From a candidate division KSB1 bacterium (GTDB lineage Bacteria; Zhuqueibacterota; Zhuqueibacteria; Residuimicrobiales; Krinioviventaceae): a stretch of DNA of 64,000 bases. The position numbers and the translations under genes are program-made. Below, one piece after another: positions 6,649 through 14,619 of the stretch. Position 1 is the first letter of the stretch. Every line of letters begins with the position of its first letter. The stretch is from contig JAXHMJ010000003.1 of NCBI GenBank assembly GCA_034521575.1, positions 620,001-684,000 of the forward strand. Reading direction: 5' to 3'. The notes under the pieces are model-generated. The model did no database searches. It had not been told where the DNA came from and was given only the letters and a program-made list of their open reading frames with translations.

Positions 6649-7398
6649 ATGAAAGCTATTGTGCTCGCAGCCGGATACGCGACACGCTTGTACCCCTTGA
6701 CCAAGGACCGCCCCAAACCCCTCTTAAGAGTCGGGGAAAAGACCATTCTGGACTATCTGTTAAAAGGATTTAACCAAATTCCGGTATTGGATCGGGTCTA
6801 TATTGTTTCCAATGCCAGGTTTGCATCGATTTTTGCAGAATGGGCCCGGATTGTCAATCAGTCCGATCGACATCCCGGATTTCAGGTGGAGGTTTTGAAT
6901 GACGGATCGCTGGATAATGAATCCAGACTGGGTGCTATTGCTGACGTACAGTTTGCTATCGATCAGGCCGGCATCGAAGAGGATTGTATTGTGGCGGCGG
7001 GAGACAATATTTTTCGCTTTGATTTTAAAGATCTGCACGAGACATTTCAAAGCCATGATGCGGATACGATTGTGGTTCAGGAGCTAAAGGATCGGGAACG
7101 GCTCAAACAACGCGGTGTGGTGTCCTTTGATGCCAATTGTAAAATTACGTTATTTGAGGAAAAACCGCAAAAGCCGCAATCAACCTATGTATGTCCGGCG
7201 CTTTATATGCACAAACAGTCGACATTACCGCTGTACAAAGTCTTTTTAAACGATCATACAACAGCGGACGCTCCCGGGCATTTCATCAGTTGGTTGTATC
7301 AACAAACCCCGGTCTATGCGTATGTCATGTCCCGGCCGGCGCTGGATATCGGCACGCTGGCGGTTTACAAGGAGATACAAAAAAAATATTCGATATAG
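6649..7398 (+). CDS. Sugar-phosphate nucleotidyltransferase
   Basis: The protein begins MKAIVLAAGYATRLYPLTKD followed by RPKPLL, the nucleotide-binding loop (G-x-G-T/A-R-L-x-P-L-T-x-x-x-P-K-P) of the NTP-transferase family, which joins a sugar- or alcohol-phosphate to an NTP to give an NDP-sugar. AAGDNIFRFD near residue 121 is the metal-binding GD motif. At 249 residues it has only the catalytic domain, without the left-handed helix of GlmU. Substrate is not readable from sequence. The ROK kinase gene starts 22 bases downstream, so the pair could phosphorylate and then activate a sugar. Confidence 0.85.
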   Translation: MKAIVLAAGYATRLYPLTKDRPKPLLRVGEKTILDYLLKGFNQIPVLDRVYIVSNARFASIFAEWARIVNQSDRHPGFQVEVLNDGSLDNESRLGAIADVQFAIDQAGIEEDCIVAAGDNIFRFDFKDLHETFQSHDADTIVVQELKDRERLKQRGVVSFDANCKITLFEEKPQKPQSTYVCPALYMHKQSTLPLYKVFLNDHTTADAPGHFISWLYQQTPVYAYVMSRPALDIGTLAVYKEIQKKYSI

Positions 7399-7420
7399 AT
7401 ATTCAAAGCGGAGTTTACTG

Positions 7421-8382
7421 ATGAGCAAGGAGAGAGAATTTTTTGCAGGACTGGATCTGGGCGGCACTTTTTTAAAATATTCCCTGGGTACCCGTAAAGA
7501 CGGGATGCTGGTCAAAAAAAGACGCCGAGCAAGGCGGATCAATCGCAGGACGCCATTTTCAATGTTATTTTTTCAGCTATTGAGGATTTGCAGCGTTGCG
7601 CCAAAGAACGGGATGGCCAACTCGTGGCTGTCGGTTTGGGCAGTCCAGGCGCTATTCATTTTGAGGATTGCCGTTTGATGGGAGCCACTCCGAATATGCC
7701 GGAATGGACAGATGCTCCTATCCGGTGAACGTATTCAAGGACAGTTTGGAGTTCCGGTGTGGGCGGATAACGACGGCAATCTGATGGCCTTTGGTGAAGC
7801 GCGTCAGGGTGCGGCCAGGGGTAAAAACATGTCCTCTGTGCAACGCTGGGCACCGGCATCGGAGGCGGCATTTTGATCAACGGTTCTCTGTACCGAGGCA
7901 GTCATTATTCGGGATCGGAGATTGGACATATTTCTATTGTGCATAACGGCCGATTATGCAATTGCGGCGGCCAGGGCTGTTTTGAGCAGTATGCCTCGGC
8001 GACATCCATGATCCGGCGCTATCAGGAACGTATGCTGGAAATGAACCGGCCCGCCCCGGAATCCGGTGGAACCAGGCTGATTTTTGACCGTGCAGCCAAA
8101 GGTGAACCTATTGCAGACGAAATTATCTCGGAAACCGTGGACTATCTTGGAACCGGTTTTGCGAGTCTGGTTAATGTGTTTAATCCTCAAGTGCTGGTTA
8201 TCGGTGGCGGCGTAGCCGAGGCCGGGGACGAATTTATCACCCGTGTTGAACGCGCCATTTACGGCAAGGCGATGAAACCTGTTCTGCGGGACCTGCAGGT
8301 GGTACGGGCACAACTGGGCAATGACGCCGGAAGTATCGGCGCTATCCATATGGCCGCGGAAATGTATGAAAAATCAAAATAA
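7421..8382 (+). CDS. ROK-family sugar kinase, three frameshifts
   Basis: A glucokinase/N-acetylhexosamine-kinase-type protein. GLDLGGTFLKYSLG at the N-terminus is the ATP phosphate loop and CNCGGQGCFEQYAS is the ROK zinc-binding motif. The reading frame is broken three times. An A7 run at about 7514 is one base short of restoring VKKKTPSK. An extra T lies at about 7726 (restored PIRERIQGQ). A base is missing at about 7831 (restored MVLCATLGTGIGGG). With these corrected, a normal protein of about 320 residues results, with no other decay visible. GGAG at 7410 precedes the start. The listed span joins the three frames. Confidence 0.8.
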
Positions 8383-8385
8383 ACC

Positions 8386-8414
8386 TTGCATCTTTTTTCA
8401 ATCTGTTTTATCTT
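8386..8414 (+). promoter_or_regulatory. Candidate his operon promoter
   Basis: TTGCAT (8386) and TATCTT (8409) are separated by exactly 17 bases. Transcription from about 8421 would place the leader-peptide ATG (8439) close to the RNA 5' end, the arrangement expected of an attenuated leader. Confidence 0.6.
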
Positions 8415-8438
8415 TAAGGTGTTAAACCGGAGAAAAAT

Positions 8439-8498
8439 ATGTACTGCCACCATCATTCACATCATCATCACAGCAAGATCCTTTCGGGAGGTGGGTAA
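8439..8498 (+). CDS. His operon leader peptide (HisL-type)
   Basis: A 19-codon open frame reads [19 protein letters not shown], with seven His in eight consecutive codons (8448-8471). GGAG at 8429 lies six bases before the ATG. It stands between a promoter and a terminator hairpin, upstream of hisG. This is the arrangement of attenuator peptides that measure charged tRNA-His: a ribosome starved for histidine stalls on the His codons. The last codons (8483-8492) double as the 5' arm of the antiterminator. It is too short for standard gene callers. Confidence 0.92.
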
Positions 8499-8535
8499 CG
8501 TACATTGACATTGATTTTTTTTCAAGCCTTCCGAA
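8483..8535 (+). promoter_or_regulatory. His attenuator antiterminator
   Basis: TTCGGGAGGT (8483-8492) can pair with GCCTTCCGAA (8526-8535) over ten positions, with two G-U pairs. That pairing uses the 5' arm of the terminator (8524-8533), so the two structures exclude each other. A ribosome stalled on the His codons leaves 8483-8492 free and the operon is transcribed. A ribosome reaching the stop at 8496 covers it and the terminator forms. Confidence 0.8.
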
Positions 8536-8558
8536 CCACACGGAAGGCTTTTTTATTT
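8524..8558 (+). terminator. His operon attenuator terminator
   Basis: A perfect 10-bp stem, AAGCCTTCCG (8524-8533) with CGGAAGGCTT (8541-8550), has a seven-base loop and is followed by TTTTATTT. It lies between the leader peptide and hisG. Confidence 0.92.
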
Positions 8559-8644
8559 ACTACACGCAGGATCGGTTCCGGATTCGAATCTTTCCGAGCC
8601 TTGTTTCAAGACAATATCAGAGATTATCAATAACAGGAGTGTTT

Positions 8645-9541
8645 ATGGCAAGTTTGAAGGATTTTACAGACGATGTTTTGAAAATCGGATTGCCCAAAGG
8701 CAGTCTGCAGGAATCCACATTTCGGCTTTTGGCCAAGGCTGGTTATCATTTTTCAGTGAGCAGCCGTTCGTATTTTCCGTCTATCGATGACGATGAGATT
8801 CAGGCTATTTTGATTCGCGCTCAGGAAATGGCCAAATATGTTGAGGACGGCGTGTTTGATGTCGGCATGACCGGCAAAGACTGGATTCTTGAAAACCGGG
8901 CCGATGTCCATCAAGTGGCGGAACTCACGTACGCCAAACAGACCCGTCGGCCGGTGCGTTGGGTCCTGGCCGTGCCCAAAGAGTCTGATATTCAGTCCGT
9001 TCAGGACTTGAATGGCAAACGCATTGCCACCGAAATTGTCAATCTGACCCGGGACTATCTGAACGGCCATGGCGTAAACGCCACCGTCGAGTTTTCCTGG
9101 GGAGCCACGGAGGTGAAAGCGCCTACATTGGTAGATGCGATTGTGGAAGTGACCGAAACAGGCAGTTCGCTGCGTGCAAATAATCTCCGGATTGTGGATA
9201 CATTGCTCGAATCACGCACCATGCTGATTGCCAATAAAAAAAGCTGGGAAAATCCGGCAAAACGCGAGAAAATTGAAAATTTTAATCTAATGATCCAGGC
9301 CGCGCTTGCAGCCGAGGATAAAGTCGGTCTGAAAATGAATCTGCCGGAATCCAAACTCGATGAACTCATGAAGCAGCTGCCGGCGATGAAAAAACCTACG
9401 ATTTCGCATTTGTACGGCGGCGACTGGGTGGCTGTGGAAATTGTTGCCGAAGAGGAAGCGGTGCGGCGTCTGATCCCTGCCCTCAAACGGGCGGGCGCAG
9501 AAGATATTATTGAATATCCGCTGAATAAAATTATATATTAA
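8645..9541 (+). CDS. hisG: ATP phosphoribosyltransferase, long form
   Basis: Catalyses the first step of histidine synthesis, joining ATP and PRPP. The N-terminal [14 protein letters not shown] and the later [12 protein letters not shown] (PRPP-binding E-x-x-x-T-G-x-T-L type loop) identify the family. At 298 residues it is the long form, whose extra C-terminal ACT-like domain (ending [14 protein letters not shown]) binds histidine for feedback inhibition and removes the need for HisZ. The start at 8645 is chosen because AGGAG ends at 8639; a GTG at 8639 would overlap it. It is the first structural gene behind the attenuator. Confidence 0.96.
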
Positions 9542-9554
9542 TACCGGACTAGTT

Positions 9555-10844
9555 ATGAATATATATCAAAAAGATCAGCTAACGGATTTTATGCATAAAT
9601 TTGAATCCCGCCGCCTCGAAATTTCTCGGGACGTTGAAAAAGCGGTGGCGGATATCCTGCAGAACGTGCAGCAGTATGGAGACCGGGCGCTTGTTGAATA
9701 CGCACAGCGCTTTGACCGGGTAAATCTGAATGTGCATCCATTGCGTGTACCCGAGGAAACCCTGCAGCAGGCACACGCGCAGCTTGACCCGGAACTTTTG
9801 GATGTTTTGCGCGGTTCGCGTGATAATATCAAACGCTATCACGAAAAAGCCATCCCCCAATCCTGGCTGACCTGGGAAGACGACGGTGTCGTGCTGGGAC
9901 GGCGGGTGCAGCCTTTGGAGCGAGTGGGGGTATATGTGCCCGGCGGACTGGCCGCCTATCCATCCTCATTGCTGATGGGGGCTGTGCCGGCGCAGGTGGC
10001 CGGAGTTGCACAAATTTGCGTGACCACACCCTGTAATGCGGAAGGAAAAATGAATCCGTTGATACTGGCCGCAGCCTGGGAACTGGGCATTGAGAATGTA
10101 TATCGGGTGGGCGGTGCGCATGCTGTGGCCGGCATGGCATTCGGAACCGACACCATTCCGCGCGTAGACAAGATTGTCGGACCGGGAAATATCTATGTGG
10201 CCACTGCCAAGAAAATGCTGTATGGTCAATGCGGTATTGATATGGTGGCCGGGCCCAGTGAGGTATTGATCATCGCGGATGAAAGCGCGGATCCGGCTTT
10301 TGCCGCAGCGGATCTGCTGGCGCAGGCCGAACACGATCCGCTGGCTTCGTCCATTCTGGTGACACCTTCTTCCGAGGTGGCCAAAGCTGTGGCCATAGAA
10401 ACCGAACAACAACTGCTCAAACTGGACCGGGTTGAGATTCTGAATTCATCCCTCGCCGAATACGGGGGCATTCTTTTGCTCGACAGCATGCAGGAATGTG
10501 TCGAGATTTCCAACCGGCTGGCCCCGGAACATCTGGGACTGCATGTCCGTGATCCGTGGACGCTGCTGGGGGACATCAAAAACGCAGGCGCCATATTTCT
10601 GGGACATTATTCACCGGAAGCTGTCGGTGATTACTGGGCCGGTCCCAATCACGTTCTGCCGACCAATGGGTCGGCGCGCTTTTTCTCGCCCTTGCGCACC
10701 GAAGACTTTGTCAAGGTGAGCAGTTTGATTTCCTATACCCAAACCGCTATGCAGAAACACGGTGAAAAAATTCGACGATTTGCCGAGAGCGAAGGACTGG
10801 ATGCGCATGCCTCCGCCATCGAAAAACGAATGGATTCATTATGA
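9555..10844 (+). CDS. hisD: Histidinol dehydrogenase
   Basis: Performs the last two steps of histidine synthesis, oxidising histidinol to histidine with NAD and zinc. It is full length at 429 residues. Family motifs include VYVPGGLAAYPSSLLMGAVP, GNIYVATAKKMLYG followed by DMVAGPSEVLIIAD, the zinc-ligand stretch QAEHDP, PEHLGLH, and SPEAVGDYWAGPNHVLPT. It follows hisG by 13 bases and overlaps the start of hisC by four bases (ATGA). Confidence 0.97.
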   Translation: MNIYQKDQLTDFMHKFESRRLEISRDVEKAVADILQNVQQYGDRALVEYAQRFDRVNLNVHPLRVPEETLQQAHAQLDPELLDVLRGSRDNIKRYHEKAIPQSWLTWEDDGVVLGRRVQPLERVGVYVPGGLAAYPSSLLMGAVPAQVAGVAQICVTTPCNAEGKMNPLILAAAWELGIENVYRVGGAHAVAGMAFGTDTIPRVDKIVGPGNIYVATAKKMLYGQCGIDMVAGPSEVLIIADESADPAFAAADLLAQAEHDPLASSILVTPSSEVAKAVAIETEQQLLKLDRVEILNSSLAEYGGILLLDSMQECVEISNRLAPEHLGLHVRDPWTLLGDIKNAGAIFLGHYSPEAVGDYWAGPNHVLPTNGSARFFSPLRTEDFVKVSSLISYTQTAMQKHGEKIRRFAESEGLDAHASAIEKRMDSL

Positions 10845-11914
10845 AACAGTATTTCAAAACTTCAGTTTTAGATCTGGACGGCTATTCCTCCCCGCCGCAA
10901 AAAGAATTCAAAGTCAAGCTGAACCAGAACGAGAGCCCTTTTGATGTGCCGGAGGAAATCAAAAACCGCTGTATACAGCGCATCGAACAGCTCGCCTGGA
11001 ACCGCTATCCGATCAACAATTCTCAACTGCTTCGGGATAAACTGGCGGCCCGGCATGCCGTGTCTGCGGACCAAATACTGCTCGGCAATGGCTCCAATCA
11101 GTTGTTTCAAACGTTGTTAACCGCTGTCCTGTCACCCGGAGACGGCGTTCTTCTGACACCGCCGACGTTCTCGCTGTATCAGTTGTTTGCAAAGATTTAT
11201 GACGCTTCTATCATCGAGGTAATGCACCCGCCGGATGAATCGTATCCTCTCGACAAGGTGCTGGAGAAAATCAAGCATGAATCACCGCGTCTGGTCATCG
11301 TGTGTTCCCCCAATAATCCCACAGGAGCGGAAATTTCGCTGCCGGATGTTGAAAACATTTGCCGGAATGCGCCGGGACTGGTGCTGTTTGACGAAGCGTA
11401 TGGTGAATTTTCCGATCGTGAAGCGGTTTCCCTGGTACAGCGCCATGAAAATCTGGTCGTTTCGCGCACGTTTTCCAAGGCGTTCAGTATGGCGGGGTTG
11501 CGGTTTGGCTATTTGATCGCACAGCGTCCCGTCATTCAGCAGCTTGGCAAGGTGAATCTGCCTTATAACGTCAATGTGTTTACCGAACAGGTGGCCATGG
11601 AATTACTGAATCATCAGAGTGACTTGATGCAGCACGTTCAGTATCTGCAAACAGAACGAGACCGCGTCTATGCACTCCTTCAGCGGCTCTCGACTGTGAC
11701 TGTTTATCCCAGTGCAGCCAATTATCTGCTGCTGAAAGGTCCGGATGATCTGGATCTGTTTGAAGCCTTGAAGAAACATGGAATCCTGGTGCGGGATGTC
11801 GGTTCTTATCCGCTGCTGCAGGGACATCAGCGGGTCACCATTGGCTGCAAAGAGGAAAATGATCTGTTTCTGGACGCTTTACAGAGGGTTATGCAGGAAT
11901 ATCACTCATACTAA
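10841..11914 (+). CDS. hisC: Histidinol-phosphate aminotransferase
   Basis: A fold-type I PLP aminotransferase (357 residues) that converts imidazole-acetol phosphate to histidinol phosphate. It shows KLNQNESPFDVP near the start, SPNNPTGAEIS, the PLP-binding DEAYGEFSD, and the Schiff-base Lys in RTFSKAFSMAGLRFGYLI. Aminotransferases of this kind can also act on aromatic substrates, but the position inside the his operon settles the role. It is translationally coupled to hisD. Confidence 0.96.
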   Translation: MKQYFKTSVLDLDGYSSPPQKEFKVKLNQNESPFDVPEEIKNRCIQRIEQLAWNRYPINNSQLLRDKLAARHAVSADQILLGNGSNQLFQTLLTAVLSPGDGVLLTPPTFSLYQLFAKIYDASIIEVMHPPDESYPLDKVLEKIKHESPRLVIVCSPNNPTGAEISLPDVENICRNAPGLVLFDEAYGEFSDREAVSLVQRHENLVVSRTFSKAFSMAGLRFGYLIAQRPVIQQLGKVNLPYNVNVFTEQVAMELLNHQSDLMQHVQYLQTERDRVYALLQRLSTVTVYPSAANYLLLKGPDDLDLFEALKKHGILVRDVGSYPLLQGHQRVTIGCKEENDLFLDALQRVMQEYHSY

Positions 11915-11925
11915 CGGAGTGTATT

Positions 11926-12510
11926 ATGAAACGCAAGGCACATATGGAACGCAACACCAAAGAGACTCGGATCCAGTTGTCTCTGAATCTCGATGGGTGC
12001 GGTGACGGTTCGGTTTCTACCGGGATTGGATTTTTTGACCACTTGCTGGATGCACTGCAAAAGCATGCCGGCTTTGATTTGAATCTCAAGGCAGCCGGAG
12101 ATTTGCATATTGACGGGCACCACACAGTAGAGGATGCCGGGATTGTGTTCGGGCAGGTGTTTTCCGAGGCTGTGGGCGATGCCGGTGGCATCCATCGCTT
12201 CGGCTGGGCCTATTGCCCGCTGGATGAAGCCCTGGCCAGAGCGGTCGTGGATATTTCCGGTCGTGCTTTTTTCCGCTATTCGAGCGAGCTGGAACTGAGA
12301 CGCGTTGGCGGGTTTGACGGCGAATTGTTTACAGAATTTTTGCGCGCTTTTGCGGATAATGCCCGAATCAATCTGCATGTCACACTGATAGACGGCAGCA
12401 ATCATCATCATGCCATGGAAGCGATGATCAAGGCAACGGCGCGCGCACTGCGCATGGCGCTCACCCGGGATGACCGGGAAACCGGTATACCGTCAACCAA
12501 GGGGTATTAA
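11926..12510 (+). CDS. hisB: Imidazoleglycerol-phosphate dehydratase
   Basis: Dehydrates imidazole-glycerol phosphate using manganese. The monofunctional form is seen (194 residues, no phosphatase domain). Metal-binding His clusters are clear in TGIGFFDHLLDALQKHAGFD, DGHHTVEDAGI and DGSNHHHAMEAMIK. GGAG at 11915 precedes the ATG. Histidinol-phosphate phosphatase must be supplied elsewhere, since no such gene is visible in this operon. Confidence 0.97.
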   Translation: MKRKAHMERNTKETRIQLSLNLDGCGDGSVSTGIGFFDHLLDALQKHAGFDLNLKAAGDLHIDGHHTVEDAGIVFGQVFSEAVGDAGGIHRFGWAYCPLDEALARAVVDISGRAFFRYSSELELRRVGGFDGELFTEFLRAFADNARINLHVTLIDGSNHHHAMEAMIKATARALRMALTRDDRETGIPSTKGY

Positions 12511-12511
12511 A

Positions 12512-13108
12512 GTGATCTGTGTCATCGATTATAATGCAGGAAATTTGCGCAGTGTACAGAAAGCATTGGAAATCTGTGGCGCAAATACGATAGTGAGTTC
12601 AGAACCGGATGATATGCGCAAGGCGGATAAAGTGGTGTTTCCCGGAGTCGGGGCGTTCGGCAAAGCCATGCATACTCTAAAAGAACTGCAGCTGGTAGAG
12701 CCGATCCGGGAGGTAATAGACCAAGGCAAACCGTTCCTGGGTATTTGTCTGGGACTGCAGCTGCTGCATGAAACCAGTGAAGAAAGTCCGGGCGTAACCG
12801 GACTTTCTGTGATTAAAGGGCGTGTTAAACGCTTTTCCGATCAGCTCAAAGTCCCGCATCTGGGCTGGAATGTGCTCATTCAGCAGCCTTCTCCACTGTG
12901 GAACCAGGTACCGGATGAGAGTTATTTTTATTTTGCCCATTCATATTATATCCAGCCTGCCGATGAGGATATTGTCACAGGTGAAAGTGAATACGATGGA
13001 CAATTTGCGGTGGCTGTTCGGCGGGATAACGTGTTTGGACTGCAGTTTCATCCCGAAAAATCACAGAAATACGGATTACAAATCCTGAAAAATTTCATTG
13101 AACTATAG
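12512..13108 (+). CDS. hisH: Imidazole glycerol phosphate synthase, glutaminase subunit
   Basis: A class I glutamine amidotransferase that feeds ammonia to HisF. The GTG start at 12512 gives the expected opening VICVIDYNAGNLRSV, with AAGGGG about eight bases before it; an earlier in-frame ATG at 12470 lies inside hisB. Catalytic residues are visible: Cys in FLGICLGLQLL, and His and Glu in FHPEKSQKYG. Length is 198 residues, normal for HisH. Confidence 0.96.
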   Translation: MICVIDYNAGNLRSVQKALEICGANTIVSSEPDDMRKADKVVFPGVGAFGKAMHTLKELQLVEPIREVIDQGKPFLGICLGLQLLHETSEESPGVTGLSVIKGRVKRFSDQLKVPHLGWNVLIQQPSPLWNQVPDESYFYFAHSYYIQPADEDIVTGESEYDGQFAVAVRRDNVFGLQFHPEKSQKYGLQILKNFIEL

Positions 13109-13117
13109 GAGGCGTTT

Positions 13118-13844
13118 GTGCAGATTTTACCGGCCATTGACCTGCTTGGTGGAAAATGTGTAAGACTGAAACAGGGGGCTGAAAAAACAGCCAAAGTCTA
13201 CAATGAGGACCCCGTGCAGCAGGCGCGCTTGTGGGAAGAGCAGGGAGGAGAGGTGTTGCATATTGTCAATCTGGACGGCGCATTCGGCCGGGCAGCGGAA
13301 AATGTACAGGCCATTGAAAGCATTGTTAATGCGGTCACGTGCCCGGTTGAGCTGGGCGGCGGTATCCGTAACATGCAGGACATTGAGCGCTGGTTGGAGC
13401 TTGGCGTGACGCGGGTCATTCTGGGAACGGTCGCAATTACAGATCCCGAAATCGTCGACTCGGCTGTTCGAACATACGGCGCTGAAAAGATTATTGTGGG
13501 GCTGGATGGACGTGATAATAAAGTGGCTATTGAAGGCTGGGAAAAACAGACGGATACCGGAATCTTTGACTCTCGCCGTCGAGATGCGCGATAAAGGCGT
13601 ACAGCGTATTATCTATACGGATGTGCGCCGGGACGGTGAACTGACAGGCCCGGATATTAAAGCCACAGACCGGTTGAGCCGTGACACCGGCTTGAAAATT
13701 ATTGCATCGGGTGGATTTTCCAAACTTGAACATTTTGAAGAATTATACGCTTTGAATAATCCCAATATCGAAGGCGCAATCGTGGGGACCGCGCTGTACG
13801 AAAACAAGCTTGATTTGAGTGACCTGGTCAAGCGTTACCGTTAA
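13118..13844 (+). CDS. hisA: HisA isomerase, one frameshift
   Basis: A TIM-barrel isomerase (ProFAR isomerase) acting before HisHF. The first frame starts with GTG (LPAIDLLGGKCVRLKQG) and shows VELGGGIRNMQDIE. At about 13557 one extra base moves the signal to the next frame, where ESLTLAVEMRDKGVQRIIYT continues, followed by DVRRDGELTGPD and IIASGGFSKLEHFEEL. Joined, the protein has the normal 240 or so residues. Both halves look undamaged, so a base error or a very recent mutation is likely. GGAGG lies upstream of the GTG. Confidence 0.9.
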
Positions 13845-13859
13845 GCAGAGGAACTGAAC

Positions 13860-14619
13860 ATGCTGGCAAAACGTATTATTCCCTGTCTGGATGTCAAGGA
13901 TGGACGGGTGGTCAAGGGTATTAATTTTTTAAACCTGATTGATGCCGGGGATCCGGTTGAACAGGCCAAATATTATGATGAACTCGGCGCAGACGAACTG
14001 GTGTATCTGGATATCACGGCCTCGCATGAAAAACGCGATATCATGCTGGATGTGGTGCGGCGCACTTCGGAACAGGTGTTTATGCCCCTGACTGTCGGAG
14101 GCGGTGTGCGCACCCCGGAAGACGCGCAATTGCTGCTTAAAAGCGGTGCGGACAAGGTGACCATGAATACCGCGGCGGTTCTGAACCCGGCAGCTGATCA
14201 CAAACTGTTCGGAACGCTTTGGCGCACAGGCCACCGTGCTGGCAATCGACGCCAAATACAAAGAGAACGGCCATTGGCAGGTCTATATTTACGGCGGACG
14301 CGAGCCGGTTGAACGGGATGCCCTCGAATGGGCATTAGAGGCGGAAGAACGGGGGGCGGGAGAAATCCTGCTTACCTCCATGGACCGTGACGGCACACAG
14401 GACGGGTTTGATCTTGATTTGACATGGACGATCTCCCATGCTGTAAATATACCGGTCATTGCTTCCGGCGGCTGTGGAGCTGTGGAACATTTTTATGACG
14501 TTTTTGCCAATGGCGCCGCAGATGCAGCGCTTGCGGCATCGATCTTTCATTATCGAAAAAACTCTATAGAAGAAGTGAAACAATATTTACAGGAAAGGAA
14601 TATTCATGTCCGAAATTGA
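13860..14619 (+). CDS. hisF: HisF cyclase subunit, one frameshift
   Basis: The TIM-barrel partner of HisH, making imidazole-glycerol phosphate and AICAR. It opens [20 protein letters not shown], with the catalytic Asp in this region (CLDVK). [15 protein letters not shown] follows. At about 14193 an extra G shifts the frame; the other frame resumes [20 protein letters not shown] with the second catalytic Asp, then [15 protein letters not shown] and [13 protein letters not shown]. Corrected length is about 252 residues, normal for HisF. The end overlaps hisI. Confidence 0.9.

Follow-up and report, generated by a model that had tools for sequence, protein, structure and literature searches.

Putative ribosome-mediated attenuation of the histidine operon in KSB1 bacteria

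The leader peptide hisL of Escherichia coli and Salmonella contains seven His. Histidine attenuation was described in the initial annotation of the DNA studied here as best known from gamma-proteobacteria; attenuators of this kind are indeed published there, but they have also been published in Firmicutes, namely in the Bacillus cereus group, Peptostreptococcaceae and Erysipelotrichales (PMC9413887), as have the hisZ/hisS leaders of bacilli (PMC2965389). In Flavobacteriaceae, a structured 5′ element is located before hisG, and leader-peptide attenuation has been proposed for amino-acid operons (PMC9723704). A search of the open-access literature returned no report of a histidine attenuator for KSB1, the SpSt-1151 class or Planctomycetota; the broad survey of Lopatovskaya et al. 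2010 (Mol Biol 44:128) lies outside that scope.

The window, that is, the whole stretch of 64,000 nucleotides that was analyzed, had been recognized from its letters as not proteobacterial. By RpoB, its genome groups with class mates and FCB phyla (46% of the columns for the window genome, whose rpoB is broken), and a placement in KSB1, by inference from these kin and other close relatives, is well supported. The only KSB1 class recognized at that time was designated UBA2214 (PMC9386943), and the phylum has later been treated as Zhuqueibacterota (PMC11683472).

Leader Anatomy and Operon Context

All elements of the leader are found on the forward strand. The promoter (8386–8416) consists of TTGCAT (8386) and TATCTT(TA) (8409), with a TTG-N20-TA spacing which is kept in relatives. 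A ribosome-binding site, CCGGAG (8427–8432), a weak Shine–Dalgarno match, is positioned a few nucleotides upstream of a hisL-like leader peptide gene of 19 amino acids, which extends from the ATG at 8439 to the TAA at 8498 and has counterparts in relatives. Direct reading of this frame gives seven His in eight codons (8448–8471), the run being interrupted by Ser.

The intrinsic terminator (stem 3:4, 8524–8554) is AAGCCTTCCG-AACCACA-CGGAAGGCTT (8524–8550), a stem of ten pairs without mismatch, after which Ts continue up to 8554. Its energy of −15.4 kcal/mol (z −5.5) was equalled by none of 200 shuffles, it is the sole terminator-like site in a scan of 8300–8700, and a terminator occupies this position in nearly all relatives. 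The antiterminator (stem 2:3, 8483–8535) is formed by TTCGGGAGGT (8483–8492) and GCCTTCCGAA (8526–8535) in ten paired positions, two of which are G-U. The second of these arms comprises the 5′ arm of the terminator and the first loop bases; the first is placed, as had been proposed, in the last codons of the peptide, inside the frame 8439–8498.

When the complete leader is folded to minimum energy, a protector stem (1:2, 8439–8505) pairs 8439–8451 with 8490–8505. In detail, the opening segments of the frame, ATGTAC and CCACC, face GGTGG and GTACAT around the stop codon. The stability of this stem in the window alone was no better than that of shuffles (z −0.4). Stems 1:2, 2:3 and 3:4 together compose a trp-type switch. 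The promoter, ribosome site, His-rich 19-residue peptide, antiterminator and terminator of the initial annotation were all recovered, with coordinates right within a few bases; the protector stem was missing from that list of parts.

Behind the leader, the gene order is hisGDCBHAF. The first gene, hisG, is of the long form (8633–9541, with the Shine–Dalgarno sequence ACAGGAG and an ATG at 8645; TIGR00070 and TIGR03455 over cut-off), and hisD, hisC, hisB, hisH, hisA and hisF follow in 9555–14619 of the same strand. On the other side, a ROK kinase gene (7316–8382) ends upstream of the promoter-like site.

An apparent frameshift breaks each of four genes of this genome, that is, the ROK kinase gene (7316–8382), hisA (13118–13844), hisF (13860–14619) and rpoB (G000:C3:104997–106560), as expected for an indel-prone long-read assembly.

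Given a ROK kinase gene that stops at 8382 and a leader transcript that is a predicted one, the hairpin at 8524–8550 might be a plain terminator of that gene accompanied by a chance frame, with hisG served by another promoter further downstream. Such an arrangement is very unlikely, because a promoter-like site with kept spacing is located between the ROK stop and the frame, the pairing of the peptide end with the terminator arm is species-specific, and the combination of elements did not arise by chance in shuffled DNA. For this last control, a detector was used whose two requirements are a short frame holding three or more His within eight codons and, 20–130 nt beyond it, a terminator; the 2,480 dinucleotide-shuffled versions of upstream regions of hisG contained no case of frame and terminator combined. 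The whole genome of 5.26 Mb contains 44 (CAY)4 runs, both strands counted; a short frame with a terminator behind it was seen in just one case, that before hisG.

By mononucleotide shuffles, the motif TTGC[AT] with the fixed TTG-N20-TA spacing would be expected ahead of the leader in 0.5 of the 24 relatives; it stands there in 17. This promoter resembles the −33/−7 promoters of Bacteroidota. In three relatives (L089, L092 and L095), the leader ATG is located 5 nt past the −10-like element, and in L106 the distance is 9 nt; the leader mRNA of the former three may be leaderless.

Conservation and Species-Specific Pairing of the Leader

The class was sampled with 63 genomes, 30 of which have a hisG at 52–100% identity. 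The informative set included 27 genomes, with the window counted, in which a close hisG is first in the operon and at least 140 nt of upstream DNA are readable. The search of relatives' hisG upstream regions for His-rich frames and stems, suggested in the initial annotation, was positive in 26 of these 27 KSB1 genomes, counts that rest on draft genomes: a His-rich leader is followed by a terminator. The strict detector counts 23, and the three further leaders are L090, cut by a contig end, and L095 and L106, with their His more spread. The same leader is carried by G014, which belongs to the same order as the window genome. Among class members with divergent hisG, none of 16 scanned showed the leader.

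The exception, L094 (G007), belongs to the same family as the window genome. The stems and terminator are kept about 150–30 nt before hisG, and the peptide, MQRLQTSKFVV, is devoid of His. This leader counts against the attenuator reading; it would be a natural example of a sensor lost or altered.

The peptides of the relatives (for instance, MIRYTVHHHHHAHITDNSL, MNNTIQKHHHHSHHHAEAPLS and MTTRIHNHHHTHHHHRHVRQMVGCVNTSRSAPTT) have little in common except His, with lengths of 15 to 34 residues and 3 to 9 His. That a His-rich peptide is kept would also suit a functional small protein, involved for example in metal binding, with the hairpins serving something else. Peptides that share almost nothing besides His, always precede hisG and have a 3′ end doubling as an antiterminator arm make this extremely improbable.

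The hairpins have diverged in sequence as well, and the leaders differ between genera. At gathering thresholds, Rfam showed no family in the window and recognized none of the 20 loci examined; RF00514 (His_leader) scored 18.9 bits in the window against a gathering score of 49, and reached gathering in 0/20 loci. When matches at E up to 10 were admitted, the window had sub-threshold matches only. The best of them, PsrR1 and Phe_leader, fall well short of their cut-offs and derive mostly from the terminator.

These searches also bear on a T-box, in which uncharged tRNA-His would bind the leader RNA directly and stabilize the antiterminator, the His-rich frame being incidental. The his operon fits as a target, the stretch GGTGGGT recalls the T-box sequence, and an arm 2 resembling GGTGGG is found in many relatives. 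Nevertheless, RF00230, which comprises stem I, specifier loop and T-box sequence, has no match in the window even at E up to 10 and none in the 20 loci at gathering. Moreover, the roughly 100 nt from start to terminator leave no room for stem I, and His codons are kept in 26/27 while arm 2 varies. We consider a T-box most unlikely here.

Because leaders of different genera are too diverged for a confident alignment, an own-versus-cross test was used in place of a covariance model. In this test, run on 24 genomes, every arm was paired both with its own partner and with the partners of all other species, and the pairing energies were compared. The 1:2 pairing gave −19.1 kcal/mol for own and −15.0 for cross partners, and the 2:3 pairing −17.2 and −14.3 kcal/mol, respectively; in both cases the difference was reached by 0/20,000 permutations. 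For the control arms 1:3, which are not expected to pair, own and cross did not differ (p = 0.71), a result that speaks against an effect of base composition. Own pairing exceeds the cross mean of the species in 18/24 genomes for 1:2 and 17/24 for 2:3; the signal is broad but not universal. A repeat on 13 loci of a second class and of Planctomycetota gave p = 0.003 for 1:2, p = 0.02 for 2:3 and 0.74 for the control.

Proposed Mechanism and Masked Folding

The his operon is, very probably, controlled by ribosome-mediated transcription attenuation responding to charged tRNA-His. RNA polymerase would start near 8421 and a ribosome would begin the leader of 19 codons. With ample charged tRNA-His, the ribosome at the stop codon would cover arm 2 (8483–8492), leaving arm 3 free for arm 4, and transcription would end at about 8554. 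With scarce charged tRNA-His, the ribosome would stall in the His run and mask arm 1; arm 2 would then pair with arm 3 once this is made, no terminator would form, and hisGDCBHAF would be transcribed. If translation does not take place, the 1:2 stem is expected to form and the terminator to win.

Transcripts up to the terminator loop were folded with a ribosome footprint either on the middle His codon or on the stop codon, a comparison with and without masked His codons that had been proposed at the outset. The mean probability that arm 3 is paired upstream was 0.76 with the footprint on the His codon and 0.41 at the stop. In the 25 relatives, it was higher with the stalled ribosome in 19, the right direction, equal in 3 and lower, the wrong direction, in 3; in the window, the values were 0.89 and 0.53, respectively. 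Once the transcript is complete and at equilibrium, the terminator prevails in most cases, and in the window its probability is 1.0 in every ribosome state. The antiterminator would then presumably have to act by kinetic capture before the synthesis of arm 4 is complete, as the classical model has it.

Two competing stems would suit any sensor, including a ligand riboswitch or a protein-dependent antiterminator which perceives histidine without translation. Such sensors have a negligible probability here: a conserved aptamer-like core and an Rfam family over gathering were both absent, the sequences change from genus to genus, and at least three relatives have the leader ATG close behind the −10 element, with little RNA before it.

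The features by which an attenuator is recognized occur together at this locus. A frame with codons for the end product, predicted to be translated, precedes the biosynthetic operon, a terminator is located between leader and hisG, and the antiterminator excludes the terminator and is conserved as pairing. Furthermore, in the masked folds a stalled ribosome frees the 5′ antiterminator arm and a ribosome at the stop covers it. The reading as a histidine attenuator, already that of the initial annotation, is supported at the sequence level by anatomy, by its retention in nearly all relatives although the sequences have diverged, and by species-specific complementarity of the arms. From these we infer peptide translation, stalling, ribosome–polymerase coupling and the histidine response itself.

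Wider Occurrence and Comparison with Known Systems

An independent or wider occurrence had been considered for this leader, and the wider one is seen: beyond KSB1, the leader extends to a second class and to some Planctomycetota. The second class is that of SpSt-1151 and Zod_Metabat.1270; all 10 of its loci with upstream DNA have a His-rich leader, and in one of them, L299, it precedes a hisG of only 31% identity. In one class of Planctomycetota, the leader is present in 6/10, and RpoB confirmed the placement for L007 and L014. The leader-bearing hisG of Planctomycetota stand apart from other hisG of this phylum, in a tree without the loci matched on the minus strand; this incomplete tree suggests that hisG was transferred to this branch. 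In most other phyla with similar hisG (Chlorobiota, Bacteroidota, Verrucomicrobiota, Nitrospinota and others), the detector found none, and hisG often lies within an operon there.

In L294 and L298, a tRNA-Asn gene upstream of hisG ends about 15 nt before the start of the leader peptide, which suggests that tRNA and putative attenuator are transcribed jointly. In L279 (the same as L007, Planctomycetota), a His7 leader 240 nt before hisG has no ATG, GTG or TTG close upstream, and its start is likely the CTG after GGGAGGAG.

Ahead of trpE, five genomes of the window's own family, G000 included, encode a leader in which three or four Trp follow one another (or WWWLW). For the genome of the window itself, a sequence scan located the leader NFWWWW and two successive hairpins before trpE on the reverse strand (L182, positions of about 616–800 when reverse-complemented; near 590 kb in G000:C5), and leader and hairpins are kept also in L179, L180, L183 and L184. 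Attenuation in this family thus seems not to be limited to his. Respective leaders before ilvD, leuA/HMGL and pheA of the family were not convincing.

A possible, still rather doubtful, extension is that his (and trp) attenuation is an old general device of KSB1 and its FCB neighbors, with nearly all of its sequence turned over, and that one branch of Planctomycetota received it together with hisG; the mainly proteobacterial and Gram-positive textbook picture would then reflect the genomes that were searched. The leaders would place a classic translation-coupled switch in uncultured phyla whose regulation is almost unknown, and would imply coupling of ribosome and polymerase in them. They also offer a resource of about 40 diverged natural attenuators, Rfam having found 0/20 of the tested loci, and gene finders are predicted to miss such leader peptides throughout the group.

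Compared with the his attenuator of E. coli and Salmonella (RF00514), the KSB1 locus shares a seven-His leader, alternative stems and an intrinsic terminator before hisG. On the contrary, it has three alternative stems where the enterobacteria have a longer A–F series, its His run is interrupted by Ser, its promoter is different, and it falls below the RF00514 gathering score. The Firmicutes attenuators (PMC9413887, PMC2965389) are similar in their His-rich leader, in a terminator and antiterminator before his genes and in being missed by RF00514, but they belong to another phylum, have other sequences and, as published, carry three to five His in a row, whereas KSB1 leaders have three to nine. 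The element of Flavobacteriaceae (PMC9723704) precedes the same gene in a related superphylum, a likeness drawn from a brief description only.

In architecture, the trp attenuator of the trpL type has the same 1:2 protector, 2:3 antiterminator and 3:4 terminator; in both, the beginning of the frame overlaps with arm 1, and the end of the frame with arm 2. The differences are that the KSB1 leader is proposed to sense His, that its arm 2 is inside the last peptide codons and that its arm 1 begins at the start codon. Conclusively, the KSB1 leader would be of a classical kind, working like the trp and his attenuators and distinct from RF00514 as modelled, and what is new would be the lineages in which it is found.
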